From: Marinobacterium stanieri
Lineage (GTDB): Bacteria > Pseudomonadota > Gammaproteobacteria > Pseudomonadales > Balneatricaceae
DNA length: 64,000 nucleotides
Direction: 5' to 3'
Assembly (NCBI RefSeq): GCF_900155945.1
Contig: NZ_FTMN01000003.1
Location: forward strand, 310,001 to 374,000
Made by a program: the position numbers and the translations under genes. How positions within the stretch are numbered: the stretch's first letter is position 1; each line of letters begins with the position of its first letter. Shown piece by piece: positions 2,557-8,590 of the stretch. Below the pieces are notes generated by a model. It was not told where the DNA came from, made no database searches, and worked only from the letters and a program-made list of their open reading frames with translations.

Positions 2557-3606
2557 ATGGCCAGCCTCACACAGCTCATCAACACACAATTTCCCCTGAT
2601 TCAGTCCCCCATGGCCGGTGTTCAGGGCTGGGAGCTGGCGGCTGCCGTTGCTTCAGCAGGTGGCCTGGGATCACTTCCCTGTGCCATGTTGACCCCTGAG
2701 GGTGTGGAATCTGCGGTAGATGCTTTTCGTCAACGCAGCACTGGCCCTATCAACCTGAATTTCTTCAGTCACACACAACCAGAGCCCGACCAAGAAGTAT
2801 TAGCCAACTGGCTCGACAACTTTCTCCCCTATTACAGCGAACTGGAAGTTGCCGTACCCAAGGGTCCTGCTGGCCCCGGGCGCCAGCCGTTCAACCAGGC
2901 GATGGCCGACGTAGTTACAAGCGTCAAACCCGAGGTGGTGAGCTTCCATTTCGGTTTGCCACACCCAGCCTTACTGGAGCAAGTACGTGCCAGTGGCGCC
3001 AAAGTGCTGTCATCAGCCACAACTCTGGAGGAAGCACTATGGCTGGAAGCTAAGGGTGTGGATGCCATTATTGCGCAGGGGCTTGAAGCCGGCGGGCACC
3101 GTGGCATGTTCCTGACTGAAGATATCACCCAACAATCAGGCACGATGGCACTGCTGCCCCAGATCGTGAATGCCGTTAGCGTTCCCGTGATCGCCGCCGG
3201 TGCTATTGCCGATGCAGCGGGGGTCGCCGCAGCCATGGCTCTGGGTGCCGCTGGTGTGCAGGTCGGCACTGCCTACCTTTTATGTGATGAAGCCACCACC
3301 TCAGCGGTTCACCGTACAGCGTTGCAGTCGGATGCAGCAGCCCACACGGTATTGACCAATCTGTTCAGTGGCCGCCCGGCCCGCGGCATAGTGAATCGAA
3401 TGATTCGCGAGCTGGGGCCCATGAATGAAAGCGCTCCCCGCTTCCCGCTTGCCACCGCAGCCTCCGCGCCTTTGAGAGCTGCCGCTGAAGCCAAAGGGTC
3501 AGGCGACTTTACACCGCTCTGGGCCGGTCAAAACGTTTCCGGCTGCCGAGCAGTGCCTGCAGCCGAGATCACCAAGGCTTTGGCGCAAGGGTTCACACCA
3601 GCTTAA
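2557..3606 (+). CDS. Nitronate monooxygenase family FMN enzyme
   Basis: 349 residues with the TIM-barrel signatures of class I nitronate monooxygenases (2-nitropropane dioxygenase family): QSPMAG at 16-21, GGLGSLP at 35-41, FHFG with H131 (the position of the catalytic base in the family), AQGLEAGGHRG at 173-183, and the phosphate-binding PVIAAGAIADAAG and GAAGVQVGTAYLL segments. Such enzymes oxidise toxic nitronates such as propionate-3-nitronate using FMN and oxygen. AAGGAG lies 6 nt ahead of the ATG. The gene stands alone; its 3' end overlaps the convergent DUF47 gene by 14 bp. Exact substrate cannot be told, since many family members are only NADH:quinone reductases. Confidence 0.9.
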   Translation: MASLTQLINTQFPLIQSPMAGVQGWELAAAVASAGGLGSLPCAMLTPEGVESAVDAFRQRSTGPINLNFFSHTQPEPDQEVLANWLDNFLPYYSELEVAVPKGPAGPGRQPFNQAMADVVTSVKPEVVSFHFGLPHPALLEQVRASGAKVLSSATTLEEALWLEAKGVDAIIAQGLEAGGHRGMFLTEDITQQSGTMALLPQIVNAVSVPVIAAGAIADAAGVAAAMALGAAGVQVGTAYLLCDEATTSAVHRTALQSDAAAHTVLTNLFSGRPARGIVNRMIRELGPMNESAPRFPLATAASAPLRAAAEAKGSGDFTPLWAGQNVSGCRAVPAAEITKALAQGFTPA

Positions 3607-4262: not shown

Positions 4263-5303
4263 TTACTGGCCCAGCCCGAATAGACTTACCAGCCCGTAGC
4301 ACAGCATGGCGAGAACTGCGGCACCGGGAATGGTAATCAGCCAGGTGAGTGCGATCTCACGGGCCTTGGTCCAGCGAACCGCGCGGGGGCGTTCCGAAGC
4401 GCCTATCCCCATAATGGAGGATGAAACTACGTGAGTCGTAGATACCGGTGCGCCCACCAGGGAGGCCAGAAAGACCACTCCGGCGGAGGTCAGCTGTGAG
4501 TTCAACGCATGCAGGGGGCGAATCTTATAGATGGCAAATGCCAGAGTACGGACAATTTTCCAGCCACCCAATACGGTGCCCAGCGTGATGGCGGATGCGC
4601 AGAGCATGATGACCCATAGCGGCACTTCAAAGGTATCGATCTGGCCACTCAGCAGCAGACAAAGTGTCAATATGCCCATGCTTTTCTGGGCATCATTGGC
4701 ACCATGGGAAAATGCCAAGCCGGCGGTAGTCAGCCATTGTGCGCCCCTGAGTTCCCGGTTCACCAGAGGGCTGGCGGAGCGCAATAACAGCAGCATCACG
4801 CGCTGCAATACAAAGCCCAACCAGAAGCCCATCAAAGGGGAAAGGATCAGTGCCAGCAGTACTTTAGTCACGCCAGTGAATTCGCCACGCGTCAGTGCTT
4901 CCAGCCCCCAAACCACCTGATCAGGCCCGGCTGATACAACAACAACACCACAGAGCCCACCCACCAAGGCATGAGAAGACGATGACGGAATACCGCGCCA
5001 CCAGGTGATGAAATTCCAGGCCGTTGCTGCAAATAATCCGCATAGCACGACCACAAGCGAAAGCGTATCAGGCAGCTCATCAAGGGTGACAAATTTGCCA
5101 ATGGTATTGGCGACTGCCGTGCCACCCAATACAGGCCCGAGAAAGGTAAACCCGCCCACAATCAATACCGACTGCAGTGGTGTCATTGCCCGTGATGCGA
5201 TGACAGATGCCACCATATTGGAGGCATCATGAAAACCATTGGTAAAATCGAAGAGTACGACCATTAGGCCAGCTAACACTATCAGCAGCCAGACTGTATC
5301 CAT
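4263..5303 (-). CDS. pitA: Low-affinity inorganic phosphate transporter, PiT family
   Basis: 346 residues, about ten hydrophobic helices. Both halves carry the PiT signature: FDFTNGFHDASN near residue 20 and FSHGANDAQKSMG near residue 200, plus SSHALVGG and the C-terminal GAPVSTTHV motif. PiT carriers import metal-phosphate complexes with protons across the inner membrane. The length is shorter than E. coli PitA (499) but usual for the form paired with DUF47. Followed by the DUF47 gene on the same strand. Gene symbol is used in the family sense. Confidence 0.9.
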   Translation of the reverse strand: MDTVWLLIVLAGLMVVLFDFTNGFHDASNMVASVIASRAMTPLQSVLIVGGFTFLGPVLGGTAVANTIGKFVTLDELPDTLSLVVVLCGLFAATAWNFITWWRGIPSSSSHALVGGLCGVVVVSAGPDQVVWGLEALTRGEFTGVTKVLLALILSPLMGFWLGFVLQRVMLLLLRSASPLVNRELRGAQWLTTAGLAFSHGANDAQKSMGILTLCLLLSGQIDTFEVPLWVIMLCASAITLGTVLGGWKIVRTLAFAIYKIRPLHALNSQLTSAGVVFLASLVGAPVSTTHVVSSSIMGIGASERPRAVRWTKAREIALTWLITIPGAAVLAMLCYGLVSLFGLGQ

Positions 5304-5354: not shown

Positions 5355-6683
5355 TTATCTAAGTTGAATGCTGACCTGAAGGCCGCCTTCCTGCGCATGG
5401 CCAAATGTCAGGCTGCCAGCATAACTCTCCACGATAGCGGAACAGATCGACAATCCCAGTCCGCTGCCCTCTCCGCTTTGCTCGTCTATCCGTACCCCGC
5501 GCAGCGACATGCGCTGCATGGCTTCCTCCGATACTCCGGCTCCGTCATCACTGATGATCAGGCACCAGGCATCGATATCGGGCGACGGCGGCAGGATTTG
5601 CAAGGACACACAATGGGTGGCGTGTCGCCAGGCGTTATCCAGCAGATTGCCCAGCAATTCCAGCATGTCGTCACGGTCAAACGGCATGGTGCCCTGGGGT
5701 AACTCAGACTGAAACCGGATATCATCGCGACCAATACGCTGCAGCAGCTGCACCAGATGCGTAATTTCTTCCTTTGGATTGAAGTGACGCCCGGGCCCTG
5801 GCGCGCCGGCAATGCGTGCTCGCCTCAGCTCACGCTCAATACGCTGATAGAGCTCCTCATATAGCAACATCAATTGCTGCTTCTGCTCAGGGTCCGGATG
5901 CTGATCTGCCAACCACTGCAATTGCTGCAGCGGCCGTTTGAGTTCATGGGCAAGATTGCCCAGCGCCATGCGTGAACGGCTAATCTGCTGACCTGATTGA
6001 TGTAGCAGTTGCGTGATACTGGTTACCAGCGGCTCCACTTCCCTGGGCACATCAGCCGGCAAGTCGATATCCTCGCCCGCCTGCTGCCGAGCCAATGCCT
6101 GGCGCAAGGGTTCCAGCCGTTGAAAACCTCGCTTGAGTACTCGGCGTTGCTGTAACAGCACAAGGGGGACACTCAGGCCAACCAGCACAATTAACCAGAC
6201 TGCCAGCTGTTCCTGATCATGCTTAAGCTCGGCTATATCCTGAGCCACCCAGAGGGTAAAACGGGTACCCCCGCGCGTGAAGCCCTGTTCCAGCGCCAGC
6301 CAGTGCTGACTCTGCAGGGGACTGGATTCCGCCACTCTGGATTCTCCCGGTGCCTGCAATTCGACTTCGGGATCCAGATCCCACAGCGACCTTGAGCGCA
6401 GATCAACTTCGTCCGCTTTGAGGCGATAATAATGTCCTGACTGAACGCGCTGATAAGCTTGCATGATGGCGCCTTCGCTCAGCTGCCACTGCCCATTCGC
6501 CTCCCGAGAGAGTGCTGCTATCAGGCTTTCGGCATCCGTTTCCAAACGACTGACAACAAAGGATCGGGTCAAATGGGTAACACCAAAATGCACGACCAGC
6601 ATCAAGCCACACAACATTAACAACAGGCTGAACAGCAGTTGGCGTCGAATCCGCCACTCAAGTGAGCGTTGAGAGTTCGGCAT
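5355..6683 (-). CDS. Sensor histidine kinase, QseC/PmrB-like
   Basis: 442 residues. Transmembrane helices at about 15-34 and 161-178 enclose a periplasmic sensor of about 125 residues. The phospho-acceptor is H246 in NLAHELKRP, an unusual H-box with KR in place of the common RTP-type sequence. The ATPase domain has GNLLDNAWRHA (N box), SDDGAGV (G1) and GSGLGL (G2). The ATG follows the response regulator's TAA by one base, so the pair is translationally coupled. It is the last gene of the five-gene PepSY/cytochrome operon and presumably senses a redox, metal or envelope signal handled by those proteins; that link is inference. Confidence 0.93.
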   Translation of the reverse strand: MPNSQRSLEWRIRRQLLFSLLLMLCGLMLVVHFGVTHLTRSFVVSRLETDAESLIAALSREANGQWQLSEGAIMQAYQRVQSGHYYRLKADEVDLRSRSLWDLDPEVELQAPGESRVAESSPLQSQHWLALEQGFTRGGTRFTLWVAQDIAELKHDQEQLAVWLIVLVGLSVPLVLLQQRRVLKRGFQRLEPLRQALARQQAGEDIDLPADVPREVEPLVTSITQLLHQSGQQISRSRMALGNLAHELKRPLQQLQWLADQHPDPEQKQQLMLLYEELYQRIERELRRARIAGAPGPGRHFNPKEEITHLVQLLQRIGRDDIRFQSELPQGTMPFDRDDMLELLGNLLDNAWRHATHCVSLQILPPSPDIDAWCLIISDDGAGVSEEAMQRMSLRGVRIDEQSGEGSGLGLSICSAIVESYAGSLTFGHAQEGGLQVSIQLR

Positions 6684-6684
6684 G

Positions 6685-7362
6685 TTAATGCGTCGCAGCG
6701 GGGGTTGAAGGCAAGCTATAGCCCTGGCCGCGGCGGGTCAGGATCACGTTCTTGCCCAGATACTGGCGCAGGCGATTGATATAAACCTCTATGACATTGC
6801 TGTCACGCAACTGATCTTCTTCATAGACGTGTTCGCTGAGCTGTGTTTTCGACAGGATACGGTCAGGATTAAGCATCAGGTATCGCAACAGACGGAACTC
6901 AACTCCTGTCAGTTGATGCTGTTGCCCCTGCGCATCCAGGACCGTTTGTCGATCAGAATCCAATTGCAAACCGGCTACTTCCAGCAAACTGCTGGCATGG
7001 CCGTGCTGGCGTCGCACCAGTGCTTCCAGCCGGGCCAGCAACTCTTCCGTATGGAAGGGCTTGCCCAAATAGTCATCCGCACCGGCCTTAAGCCCATCGA
7101 CTCGTTCGTGCCAGGCATCACGGGCCGTGAGAATAAGCACCGGAGTGGTACAACCGGCGCTACGCCAGCTCTGCAATACCTGCATGCCCGGTTTTTTCGG
7201 TAGGCCAAGATCCAGCACGATGACATCAAAGGCTTCTTCCAGCCCCATGAACTCGGCATCTACGCCATCTACTGAAACTTCAACTGCAAAGCCTGCACTC
7301 TTCAGCTCAGGCTTTAACCGGTTTACCAGTGCATTGTCATCCTCGACCAGCAACACGCGCAT
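6685..7362 (-). CDS. OmpR/PmrA-family response regulator
   Basis: 225 residues. The receiver has E7-D8-D9, phospho-acceptor D51 in VIVLDLGLP, a TA switch pair in LILTARDAW and K in YLGKPF. The C-terminal winged helix is typical (LTGVEFRLLRYLMLNPDRILS, EVYINRLRQYLG, LTRRGQGYSL). It overlaps no neighbour but lies 2 nt after the upstream PepSY gene and 1 nt before the kinase. The direct-repeat box TTTAAG-N5-TTTAAG at 8574-8590 ahead of the operon is what PmrA/QseB proteins recognise, so it probably controls its own operon. Confidence 0.94.
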   Translation of the reverse strand: MRVLLVEDDNALVNRLKPELKSAGFAVEVSVDGVDAEFMGLEEAFDVIVLDLGLPKKPGMQVLQSWRSAGCTTPVLILTARDAWHERVDGLKAGADDYLGKPFHTEELLARLEALVRRQHGHASSLLEVAGLQLDSDRQTVLDAQGQQHQLTGVEFRLLRYLMLNPDRILSKTQLSEHVYEEDQLRDSNVIEVYINRLRQYLGKNVILTRRGQGYSLPSTPAATH

Positions 7363-7364
7363 GT

Positions 7365-7685
7365 TCAGTCATCCTCAATCTCTTCCTTCAGAATCGCACC
7401 GGTGACCGGATCAAGGTAGAACTCCCTGACATTACCAGCGTCATCCAGTATCTCAATCTCATACACCAGTCGGCCATTTTCATATTCCACCTCCACATCC
7501 AGAAGGTGGCCCGAGAACCGGTCAGGGTTGAGAGCCATCAACTCGGTCAGCGGACGTATTTTGCCCTCCCGAACCAGCTGCATGACTTCGTCCTGATCGA
7601 GATCACGACTGGCTGATGCAGCAAGGGAGAACAGCAAGCCAGAACTCAACGCCAGCACTGATAAATGTCTGGTGAATCTACTCAC
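7365..7685 (-). CDS. Secreted PepSY-domain protein, 106 aa
   Basis: A signal peptide (residues 1-25, ending ASA) is followed by one PepSY domain: LDQDEVMQLVREGKIRPL, then VEYENGRLVYEIEILD and FYLDPVTGAILKEEIEDD. PepSY domains are small periplasmic modules linked with protease inhibition or with heme and metal handling. The gene is third in the operon, between the cytochrome b561 gene (27 bp) and the response regulator gene (2 bp). The very acidic C-terminus could bind cations. Exact role unknown. Confidence 0.85.
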   Translation of the reverse strand: MSRFTRHLSVLALSSGLLFSLAASASRDLDQDEVMQLVREGKIRPLTELMALNPDRFSGHLLDVEVEYENGRLVYEIEILDDAGNVREFYLDPVTGAILKEEIEDD

Positions 7686-7711
7686 GTATACCTCCCTTGA
7701 TATTGTTGCCG

Positions 7712-8245
7712 CTATTCCTGGTCCGTGCCGCTTGCGGGGCGTTTACGCCCGGTGATCATGGCACGCGGCAGGTTTTCGTCATGTTTGAAACTGGCCCAGA
7801 ATACACCGCCCAGGTGTAACACGACCAGCAGCAGCACCAGATTCCCGGCACTTTCATGAACCTCTTCGACCCAGGACTCACCCCAGAAGATATCGGTCCC
7901 CAGCCAGCCACTGAGCGTCAGCGCACACAGAGACACAAGCAGAGCAACGACCATCATGCCCCCGGCCGGATTATGACCGATATGACGGGTTTCACGCCCC
8001 TTGCGGATATCCTGCAGGTAACTGAAAACACGCCCGGGTGAGCGGACAAATTGCGTAAAGCGCGCATAGCGGGGACCCGTAAGCCCCCAGATAATGCGGA
8101 AAGCGACCAGACCTGCCGTAATGTAGCCCATCACTTCATGCAGATCCTGCCATTCATCAGCGCTGATCCAGGCCACCGTAAAACAGATCACCAGCGACCA
8201 GTGAAACACACGGACCAACGGGTCCCAGACTTTTACGGTGACCAT
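7712..8245 (-). CDS. Cytochrome b561 family, di-heme membrane subunit
   Basis: 177 residues with four transmembrane helices. Candidate heme ligands are H15 (RVFHWSLV), the His of DLHEVMGY, and two in the last helix region (VHESAGNL and VVLHLGG). This is the YdhU/b561 type that carries electrons between the quinone pool and a periplasmic partner. It sits 10 bp after one PepSY gene and 27 bp before another, which suggests that the PepSY proteins act with it, perhaps as soluble redox or metal partners. It ends in a basic cytoplasmic tail. Confidence 0.9.
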   Translation of the reverse strand: MVTVKVWDPLVRVFHWSLVICFTVAWISADEWQDLHEVMGYITAGLVAFRIIWGLTGPRYARFTQFVRSPGRVFSYLQDIRKGRETRHIGHNPAGGMMVVALLVSLCALTLSGWLGTDIFWGESWVEEVHESAGNLVLLLVVLHLGGVFWASFKHDENLPRAMITGRKRPASGTDQE

Positions 8246-8255
8246 GGCAACCTCC

Positions 8256-8525
8256 TTAGTCCTCGAGTTCCATTTTTACAATATCGAAACTCTTGGGATC
8301 GAAGTACGCTTCTACGCGGCGGTCTTTCTCGTCGTAGCCGTAAATTTCGTAGCAGCCATCGTCAATTTTGAATTTCTTGATTTCCCAGCCCTTGGCCGCC
8401 ACGGCATCACGGAAGGCCTGCTCAGACTGCCACTCATCTTTAGGGACATCGCATTTGTCACCCGCAAAGGCCGGTGAAGCGATTACGGCGGTGGAAAGCA
8501 GCAGAGAGGTAAGCAGTGTTTTCAT
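8256..8525 (-). CDS. Secreted PepSY-domain protein, 89 aa
   Basis: First gene of the operon. Signal peptide residues 1-21 (ending AFA), mature start GDKCDVPKDEW, then a PepSY domain (FRDAVAAKGWEIKKFKIDDGCYEIYGYDEKDRRVEAYFDP). Two cysteines, C25 and the one in DDGCYE, could form a disulfide. This is the type annotated as 'PepSY protein next to cytochrome b' in other Proteobacteria. An AGGAG ribosome site lies 9 nt ahead of the ATG and is itself part of a stem (8534-8555). Confidence 0.87.
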   Translation of the reverse strand: MKTLLTSLLLSTAVIASPAFAGDKCDVPKDEWQSEQAFRDAVAAKGWEIKKFKIDDGCYEIYGYDEKDRRVEAYFDPKSFDIVKMELED

Positions 8526-8533
8526 CGATCTGA

Positions 8534-8555
8534 CTCCTGTGTTGATTGACAGGAG
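8534..8555 (-). promoter_or_regulatory. Hairpin that pairs with the ribosome site of the first PepSY gene
   Basis: On the coding strand CTCCTGT pairs with ACAGGAG across an 8-nt loop. The second arm contains the AGGAG ribosome site of the gene starting at 8525, so folding would hide it. The stem is only 7 bp; effect on translation is inferred. Confidence 0.35.
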
Positions 8556-8557
8556 CC

Positions 8558-8563
8558 AGAATA
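8558..8563 (-). promoter_or_regulatory. Candidate -10 box of PepSY operon
   Basis: TATTCT on the minus strand, 33 bp ahead of the start codon at 8525. The direct-repeat box at 8574-8590 occupies its -35 region, the layout expected when a bound regulator recruits polymerase to a promoter lacking a good -35. Confidence 0.4.
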
Positions 8564-8573
8564 GAGAAGCGGA

Positions 8574-8590
8574 CTTAAATGAAACTTAAA
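8574..8590 (-). promoter_or_regulatory. PmrA/QseB-type operator
   Basis: On the minus strand TTTAAG-TTTCA-TTTAAG, two identical hexamers 11 bp apart. This fits the YTTAAK-N5-YTTAAK pattern known for PmrA, which QseB also binds. It lies 49 bp upstream of the first PepSY gene, whose operon encodes a regulator of just this family. Confidence is in the match; binding is inferred. Confidence 0.6.

Follow-up and report, generated by a model that had tools for sequence, protein, structure and literature searches.

The 64,000-nucleotide stretch of Marinobacterium stanieri DNA analyzed here (contig NZ_FTMN01000003.1; this whole stretch is referred to as the window) carries a compact cluster of five genes, coding for a secreted PepSY_2 protein (PepSYa), a membrane cytochrome b561 (CYT), a second secreted PepSY protein (PepSYb), a response regulator (RR) and a sensor histidine kinase (HK). 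The best reading of this cluster is that it comprises two modules, a PepSYb-RR-HK switch and a separate PepSYa-cytochrome b561 pair, with one of the two similarly named PepSY proteins belonging to the kinase and the other to the cytochrome. On balance, we favour the view that it is a two-component operon of the BqsQRS/DbfQRS type (SK1-Orf1) which acquired a PepSY_2-cytochrome b561 pair, PepSYb tuning the kinase and the pair being a co-regulated electron-transfer output rather than the sensor. According to this view, PepSYb would act on the kinase sensor domain in the periplasm and set its kinase/phosphatase balance, as suggested by DbfQ, and the phosphorylated regulator would bind a TTAAG-N6-TTAAG box and turn on the whole operon in a positive autoregulation, as suggested by the box itself and by DbfR and BqsR. 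The cytochrome would move electrons from quinol to the periplasmic face or to an acceptor there, as its heme-type histidines, the SHP operon and general knowledge of b561 proteins indicate, and PepSYa, from its gene linkage, could be the partner of the cytochrome or the carrier of its substrate. At the level of sequence, the tight clustering, the protein families, the motif classes, the box, the linkage and the exchange of modules that underlie this view are all established.

An initial annotation, made from the letters alone, had described two different PepSY proteins bracketing a cytochrome and followed by a regulator and a kinase, and both the open reading frames (ORFs) and their Pfam families bear out these five genes and their order. 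The two PepSY proteins indeed differ, their best Pfam families being PepSY_2 for PepSYa and PepSY for PepSYb. All five genes lie on the minus strand and are separated, from PepSYa to HK, by 10, 26, 2 and 1 nt, a spacing from which we infer that they are cotranscribed; no sigma-70-like promoter was detected between positions 5200 and 8800.

The PepSYb-RR-HK module corresponds to a known type of switch. The SK1 class of kinases has two sequence marks, SGVYWQ and RSRSLWD in variant forms, and a constant companion, the periplasmic protein Orf1; 15 of 74 cases are located inside an SHP cytochrome operon (Meyer 2010, PMC2909971; here and below, statements on published work refer to the portions of the papers that were available). 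The periplasmic domain of the window kinase reads SGHYYR...RSRSLWD and thus carries a variant of both marks, with close variants in the aligned kinases of relatives and of three Pseudomonas bqs-like loci. Two more features of the SK1-Orf1 and BqsS-DbfS systems are present, namely a secreted PepSY protein directly upstream of the regulator, in this case PepSYb, and a regulator of the BqsR/CarR group accompanied by a putative TTAAG-N6-TTAAG operator, recognized by its letters. From its position beside the regulator we infer that PepSYb is the counterpart of Orf1, which the available part of PMC2909971 never calls a PepSY protein. The best solved relative of the regulator was the receiver domain of Pseudomonas aeruginosa CarR/BqsR (8gc6, 5.2e-42), with a further match to the CarR DNA-binding domain (9yfa, 1.8e-26), and its scores with the NCBIfam models PmrA, PhoP and QseB were 185, 185 and 177 bits, against cut-offs of 330-345. 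The name 'quorum-sensing QseBC' was dropped because both kinase and regulator score far under the cut-offs of the QseC/QseB-type models.

The accessory protein gives a consistent picture. PepSYb resembles the Pseudomonas protein at the BqsQ position, and in the three Pseudomonas bqs-like loci both the regulator-adjacent PepSY and an extra PepSY matched the PepSYb profile, neither of them matching the PepSYa profile. By sequence, neither PepSYb nor PepSYa had a solved relative below 0.04. In Vibrio cholerae, DbfQ binds the sensor domain of DbfS with a dissociation constant of 30 nM, through charged contacts R84-D62 and K102-E69, and has been inferred to shift DbfS to its phosphatase state; in P. 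aeruginosa, PA2658 is predicted to bind BqsS and PA2659 is not so predicted (PMC12714742). Because the kinase motifs, the CarR match, the PepSYb-type Pseudomonas proteins and the kinase binding of DbfQ and PA2658 point in the same direction, SK1-Orf1, DbfSQ and BqsSQ seem to represent a single system, of which the window holds a member. The earlier proposal that the PepSY proteins signal to the kinase is supported for PepSYb, which matches a known accessory protein both by the position of Orf1 (PMC2909971) and by DbfQ (PMC12714742), but not, as stated, for PepSYa, which goes with the cytochrome. Comparable modules also occur elsewhere. The genome of the window has a second one (L081, G000:C7:74000-85000; PepSY ORF 4727-5122 and kinase ORF 5802-7184, with the regulator between them), whose kinase carries RSRS and not RSRSLWD and which has a similar counterpart in another genome of the genus (L091), and a further genome (G021) has three PepSYb-RR-HK modules (L042, L083 and L084) with kinases carrying RSRSLWD or YSRSLWD.

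The order PepSYa-CYT-PepSYb-RR-HK was found in six of the eight genomes of the genus, among them M. sediminicola, M. alkalitolerans, M. iners and M. weihaiense, and is thus not due to chance. Among the loci examined from 30 other relatives, the five-gene order was not found outside the genus. The initial annotation had staked its proposal on conservation of the order, which was found in this genus only, so that the proposal is partly undercut. In four relatives (L040-L043) the kinase module stands behind another set of genes, CYT-SHP-DHC-PepSYb-RR-HK, so that PepSYa takes the place of SHP and DHC. The two c-type cytochromes of L040 match DUF1924 and DHC in Pfam. In that locus, the one-heme cytochrome at the SHP position (7726-8118) matches only DUF1924, and DUF1924 may be SHP.

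In the cytochrome tree, five cytochromes from five-gene clusters mix with five from PepSYa pairs without an SK1 kinase (four of Marinobacterium and one of a Marinobacter metagenome-assembled genome; 10 rows, 97/89), and the SHP-linked cytochromes form their own group (98/98). In the regulator tree, the regulators of five-gene and SHP operons fall into one group of 14 (98/96) and nine pair-linked regulators stand apart from the SK1 regulators (100/100), in a tree where some of the pair-linked rows come with a long-branch warning and Pseudomonas is represented by a single row. As the cytochromes split by partner while the regulators share one group, the modules have been exchanged and, judging from these trees, the same kind of switch is joined to two alternative periplasmic partners, SHP-DHC or PepSYa, of the same kind of cytochrome. 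One genome (G011) has a CYT-SHP-DHC-PepSYb-RR-HK operon and, separately, a PepSYa-CYT pair. We rejected the possibility that the cluster descends from an SHP operon in which PepSYa replaced SHP and DHC beside the original cytochrome, since the window cytochrome groups with those of the non-SK1 PepSYa pairs.

Independently of the switch, PepSYa is closely tied to the cytochrome. A profile made from 10 PepSYa sequences, each of them cytochrome-linked, was scanned against one genome each of 84,980 species and gave 398 relatives; counts over 80 loci refer to the best 80 of these 398, with up to 6 kb per side available around each. The closest named relatives came from Marinobacterium species. The cytochrome was the next gene in 77 of the 80 loci (66, plus 11 with PepSYa under an overlapping frame; 76 by the automatic rule), the exceptions being L118, which has a decayed cytochrome stub, L143 and L170. 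A broader draw took in 398 genomes of the phylum; a PepSY_2 match was present in 85 of them, and the cytochrome adjoined the PepSY_2 gene in 22 of the best-scoring 30 loci, which include the window and one congener. SK1 kinases were found in only four of the 80 loci, all of them Marinobacterium with the five-gene order, and this, together with the association of PepSYa with the cytochrome, speaks against the initial idea that the two PepSY proteins form one joint sensing device. For three kinases and two regulators taken from pair loci, the top-scoring models were those of QseC, QseB or PmrA, with scores under the respective cut-offs. PepSYa-cytochrome fusions, which would have spoken strongly for a complex, were absent from the loci searched, the 80 included, and from 36 loci of the broader draw, and the longer PepSY_2 frames fetched from that draw contained no cytochrome match in the same ORF.

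Residue conservation and predicted structures add some detail on the pair. PepSYa has an apparent signal peptide, read by eye, ending in AFA, and its Cys25, Trp32, Cys58, Tyr59 and Glu60 are invariant among relatives. Position 62 is occupied by Tyr in 80 of the 81 PepSYa sequences that have a cytochrome, whereas the four without one (L118, L079, L143 and L170) have D, D, Y and H. This pattern is only suggestive of PepSYa acting with the cytochrome, since it depends on four cases, of which this genus supplies two. In the cytochrome, His15, His36, His91, His130 and His144 are invariant in 59 rows and fit what we take to be the ligands of a diheme b561 plus one further histidine. The predicted structure of PepSYa (mean pLDDT 87.9, and 96-99 from residue 31) has one main helix on a four-stranded sheet and is PepSY-like; Foldseek gave no match below an E-value of 0.001. 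In a fold comparison the top entries were the CD1622 lipoprotein, YpmB and YpeB (Z 7.1-7.5), followed by UipA at Z 5.6, likenesses that may reflect a common arrangement only, as may the weak one to FoxB (Z 4.3 over 67 residues, root-mean-square deviation 3.0). The cytochrome is predicted to be a helix bundle, for which Foldseek likewise gave no match below 0.001, hydrogenase-1 cytochrome b ranking fourth, and the sequence search gave no solved relative at E 1.

The upstream region suggests how the two modules could be connected. A perfect TTAAG-N6-TTAAG, the sequence bound by BqsR (PMC4682146), precedes PepSYa. It is the only one in the 64-kb window, where 0.03 are expected, and the whole genome contains three. 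In the SHP-type operons the box shows no more than one mismatch in three of four cases and two mismatches in the fourth, and the non-SK1 pairs of M. ramblicola, M. lacunae, M. lutimaris and M. mangrovicola have perfect boxes 49-54 nt upstream. Among the 80 loci, a box with at most one mismatch lies within 150 nt upstream of PepSYa in 41 (16 perfect), compared with 28 of 1309 control ORFs (5 perfect) and with 0.24 per 80 predicted from shuffled upstream stretches; 12 of 23 genera are represented, labels of the type 'MAG' (metagenome-assembled genome) or of higher rank being excluded. Furthermore, a TTCAG-N6-GTCAG variant, defined post hoc after the box results of the 80 loci had been viewed, is present upstream in 16 others of these loci, mainly of Alphaproteobacteria, and in 9 of the 1309 controls. 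The half-site also resembles the PmrA box, so that a different regulator may act at boxes with no SK1 kinase nearby. Other perfect boxes lie near regulators: in the genome of the window, one stands near position 3724 of L093 (G000:C8) before a run of genes (ORFs up to 10035) that ends in another RR-HK pair, and in G002, G003, G005 and G006 such boxes precede a regulator by about 4 kb, the one in G011 standing directly before a regulator.

Several observations weigh against our interpretation of the cluster as a switch with a co-regulated electron-transfer pair. With respect to the pair, G003 has PepSYa-PepSYb-RR-HK with the cytochrome absent between, and G005 has PepSYb-RR-HK alone, its PepSYa being located on a different contig and followed there by no more than a decayed stub of the cytochrome (by coordinates this is the L118 copy, from M. 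halophilum, with the stub after 6270). Both Asp cases at position 62 come from two genomes of this one genus and may represent one event. A matching regulator and kinase of any type within about 4 kb of the pair, present in 28 of the 80 loci in an uncontrolled count, would also fit a sensory role of the pair. With respect to the box, the copies of the five-gene operons are perfect in the window and in M. alkalitolerans, with one mismatch in M. weihaiense and two in M. sediminicola, and those of M. iners and G007 have one mismatch and lie 92-93 nt upstream instead. In the broader draw, a box with at most one mismatch was found before one of the 22 cytochrome-linked PepSY_2 loci, which is the window itself, and before 2 of 128 controls. 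In the same draw the TTCAG-N6-GTCAG variant preceded 3 of the 22 cytochrome-linked loci, six of the eight without an adjacent cytochrome and 15 of the 128 controls, the high control count being probably caused by divergent genes sharing the region. A perfect direct repeat of the variant stands upstream of PepSY_2 genes without an adjacent cytochrome in L101, L250, L251, L253, L256 and L258, and where this variant occurs it may be linked to the PepSY_2 gene and not to the cytochrome. The failure of the broader draw to reproduce the box limits the regulatory claim, and a general regulation of the pair through BqsR-class boxes, strong as it looked in the 80 loci, was rejected for this reason. We therefore read the box as the mark of a genuine regulatory link that holds for this genus, its surroundings and some further lineages, and not as a universal one.

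The order retained in G003 also bears on the possibility that PepSYa is a second modulator of the kinase, like PA2659/BqsP, with the cytochrome as a bystander. In its favour, BqsRS of P. aeruginosa is preceded by two PepSY genes (PMC12714742), and G003 keeps both PepSY genes next to the kinase module. However, the PepSYa of G003 has lost Tyr62, Tyr74 and Lys53, the Pseudomonas protein in the place of BqsP belongs to the PepSYb type and not to the PepSYa type, PepSYa accompanies the cytochrome across Proteobacteria, and PA2659 itself is not among the proteins predicted to bind BqsS (PMC12714742), all of which makes a second modulator very unlikely.

The tightness of the operon, the conservation of its order in the genus and the regulators and kinases near 28 of the 80 pairs would also be expected from a single redox- or metal-sensing loop, in which the cytochrome sets the periplasmic redox or Fe2+/Fe3+ state and both PepSY proteins relay it to the kinase. 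In this regard, P. aeruginosa BqsS binds Fe2+ and is stimulated by it, with Glu48 as the key ligand assisted by Glu45 and Asn49 (PMC12666569). The ExxE motif found in the first periplasmic helix of BqsS Fe2+ sensors is absent from the window kinase, where the sequence is RLETDAESL; a Glu is kept in the place of Glu48, and Glu45 and Asn49 are replaced by Thr and Ser in a register taken from P. otitidis and not from P. aeruginosa BqsS. Fe2+ sensing by the window kinase would thus be possible but is not supported by these residues, and in V. cholerae iron left the reporter unchanged (PMC12714742). Moreover, 52 of the 80 pairs lack such a regulator and kinase neighbour, only the four mentioned above have an SK1 kinase, and two genomes of the genus (G003 and G005) retain the kinase module with no intact cytochrome beside it. 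We consider the sensing loop rather unlikely.

A different function for the pair itself is suggested by LcoA-BcnA, a b561 with a YceI-type lipocalin, which shares with PepSYa and CYT the layout of a small secreted protein encoded beside a b561 and is induced by stress (PMC9113575); the available part of that paper mentions no two-component genes for LcoA-BcnA. By analogy, PepSYa could be a small carrier in the periplasm, re-reduced by the cytochrome and quenching radicals of the envelope under cationic-peptide stress. Some hints on envelope lipids point in this direction, as a perfect box lies upstream of dgkA and one pair is followed by an EptA-family gene and another by a sulfatase-family gene. 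On the other hand, PepSYa matches only PepSY_2 in Pfam and no lipocalin family. The box at dgkA is about 205 nt from the start of that gene and also precedes a divergent one, and the 28 genes called behind pairs, four of which were tested with Pfam, revealed no common function. Such a damage-repair role is therefore unlikely in our judgement. The dgkA-region box itself belongs to the genome of the window (L092, G000:C17; diacylglycerol kinase, ORF 2932-3309) and would possibly mark a further target of the regulator tied to envelope lipid turnover.

The coordinates of the cluster are given in Table 1. By their Pfam families, the flanking genes code for a CvfB-like S1 protein upstream and for a PHO4 transporter and a DUF47 protein downstream, and they do not look part of the five-gene unit.

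Table 1. Genes of the five-gene cluster and the upstream box, in window positions.
Feature	Position	Strand	Details
PepSYa, secreted PepSY_2 protein	8256..8525	-	89 aa; Pfam PepSY_2 2.5e-29
CYT, cytochrome b561 (Ni_hydr_CYTB / prokaryotic cytochrome b561)	7712..8245	-	177 aa; Pfam 2.3e-27
PepSYb, secreted PepSY protein, Orf1/DbfQ/BqsQ-like	7365..7685	-	106 aa; GTG start; Pfam PepSY 8.3e-10
RR, OmpR/PmrA-class response regulator	6685..7362	-	Pfam Response_reg + Trans_reg_C
HK, sensor histidine kinase, SK1 class	5355..6683	-	Pfam HATPase_c; periplasmic SGHYY ... RSRSLWD
TTAAG-N6-TTAAG box, perfect, putative BqsR/PmrA-class	8574..8589	-	48 nt upstream of PepSYa start

The initial annotation knew of no described function for such a set of genes. 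This holds only in part, because Orf1, a regulator and an SK1 kinase together with a membrane cytochrome b were described in 2010 (PMC2909971), but there with SHP and DHC and not with PepSYa. In the literature searched (PepSY with b561; PF13670, PepSY_2 and DUF2874), no description of the five-gene order or of the PepSY_2-b561 pair as a unit was found, which is weak evidence of absence since most subscription papers lay outside the search. The switch is thus already known, and the pair recurs in many bacteria with no described function found. In at least some lineages, the PepSY_2-b561 pair offers a testable redox output of PmrA/QseB/BqsR-class regulators.

Lastly, the cluster can be compared with systems that resemble one or the other of its modules. 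The PepSY_TM reductases FoxB and CrpH (PMC13038864) share with the pair a PepSY fold and His-ligated hemes in transmembrane helices, but they carry both in one polypeptide, whereas the window has two separate ORFs and its cytochrome matches Ni_hydr_CYTB and not PepSY_TM. A split, two-subunit reductase of this kind, in which the cytochrome would use electrons from quinol to reduce a metal bound to PepSYa and the resulting Fe2+ (or Cu+) would be read in this genus by the BqsS-like, PepSYb-tuned kinase, seems distinctly improbable to us; if true, the operon would both make and read its own signal. With DbfQRS of V. cholerae and BqsPQRS/CarRS of P. aeruginosa the cluster has in common a PepSY gene directly before the regulator and kinase, a regulator nearest to CarR/BqsR and the BqsR box, and RSRSLWD is common to the window kinase and the kinases from the bqs-like loci of three other Pseudomonas species. 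Those operons are described, in the available texts, without a cytochrome, which the window has, and their additional PepSY, in the place of BqsP, belongs to the PepSYb type, whereas that of the window is a PepSY_2 protein. The SHP operon (PMC2909971) likewise combines an SK1 kinase, an Orf1-like protein and a regulator with a membrane cytochrome b that has two heme sites. In place of SHP and DHC the window has a PepSY_2 protein, none of its five genes being a cytochrome c by Pfam, and its cytochrome belongs to a separate group of the tree.

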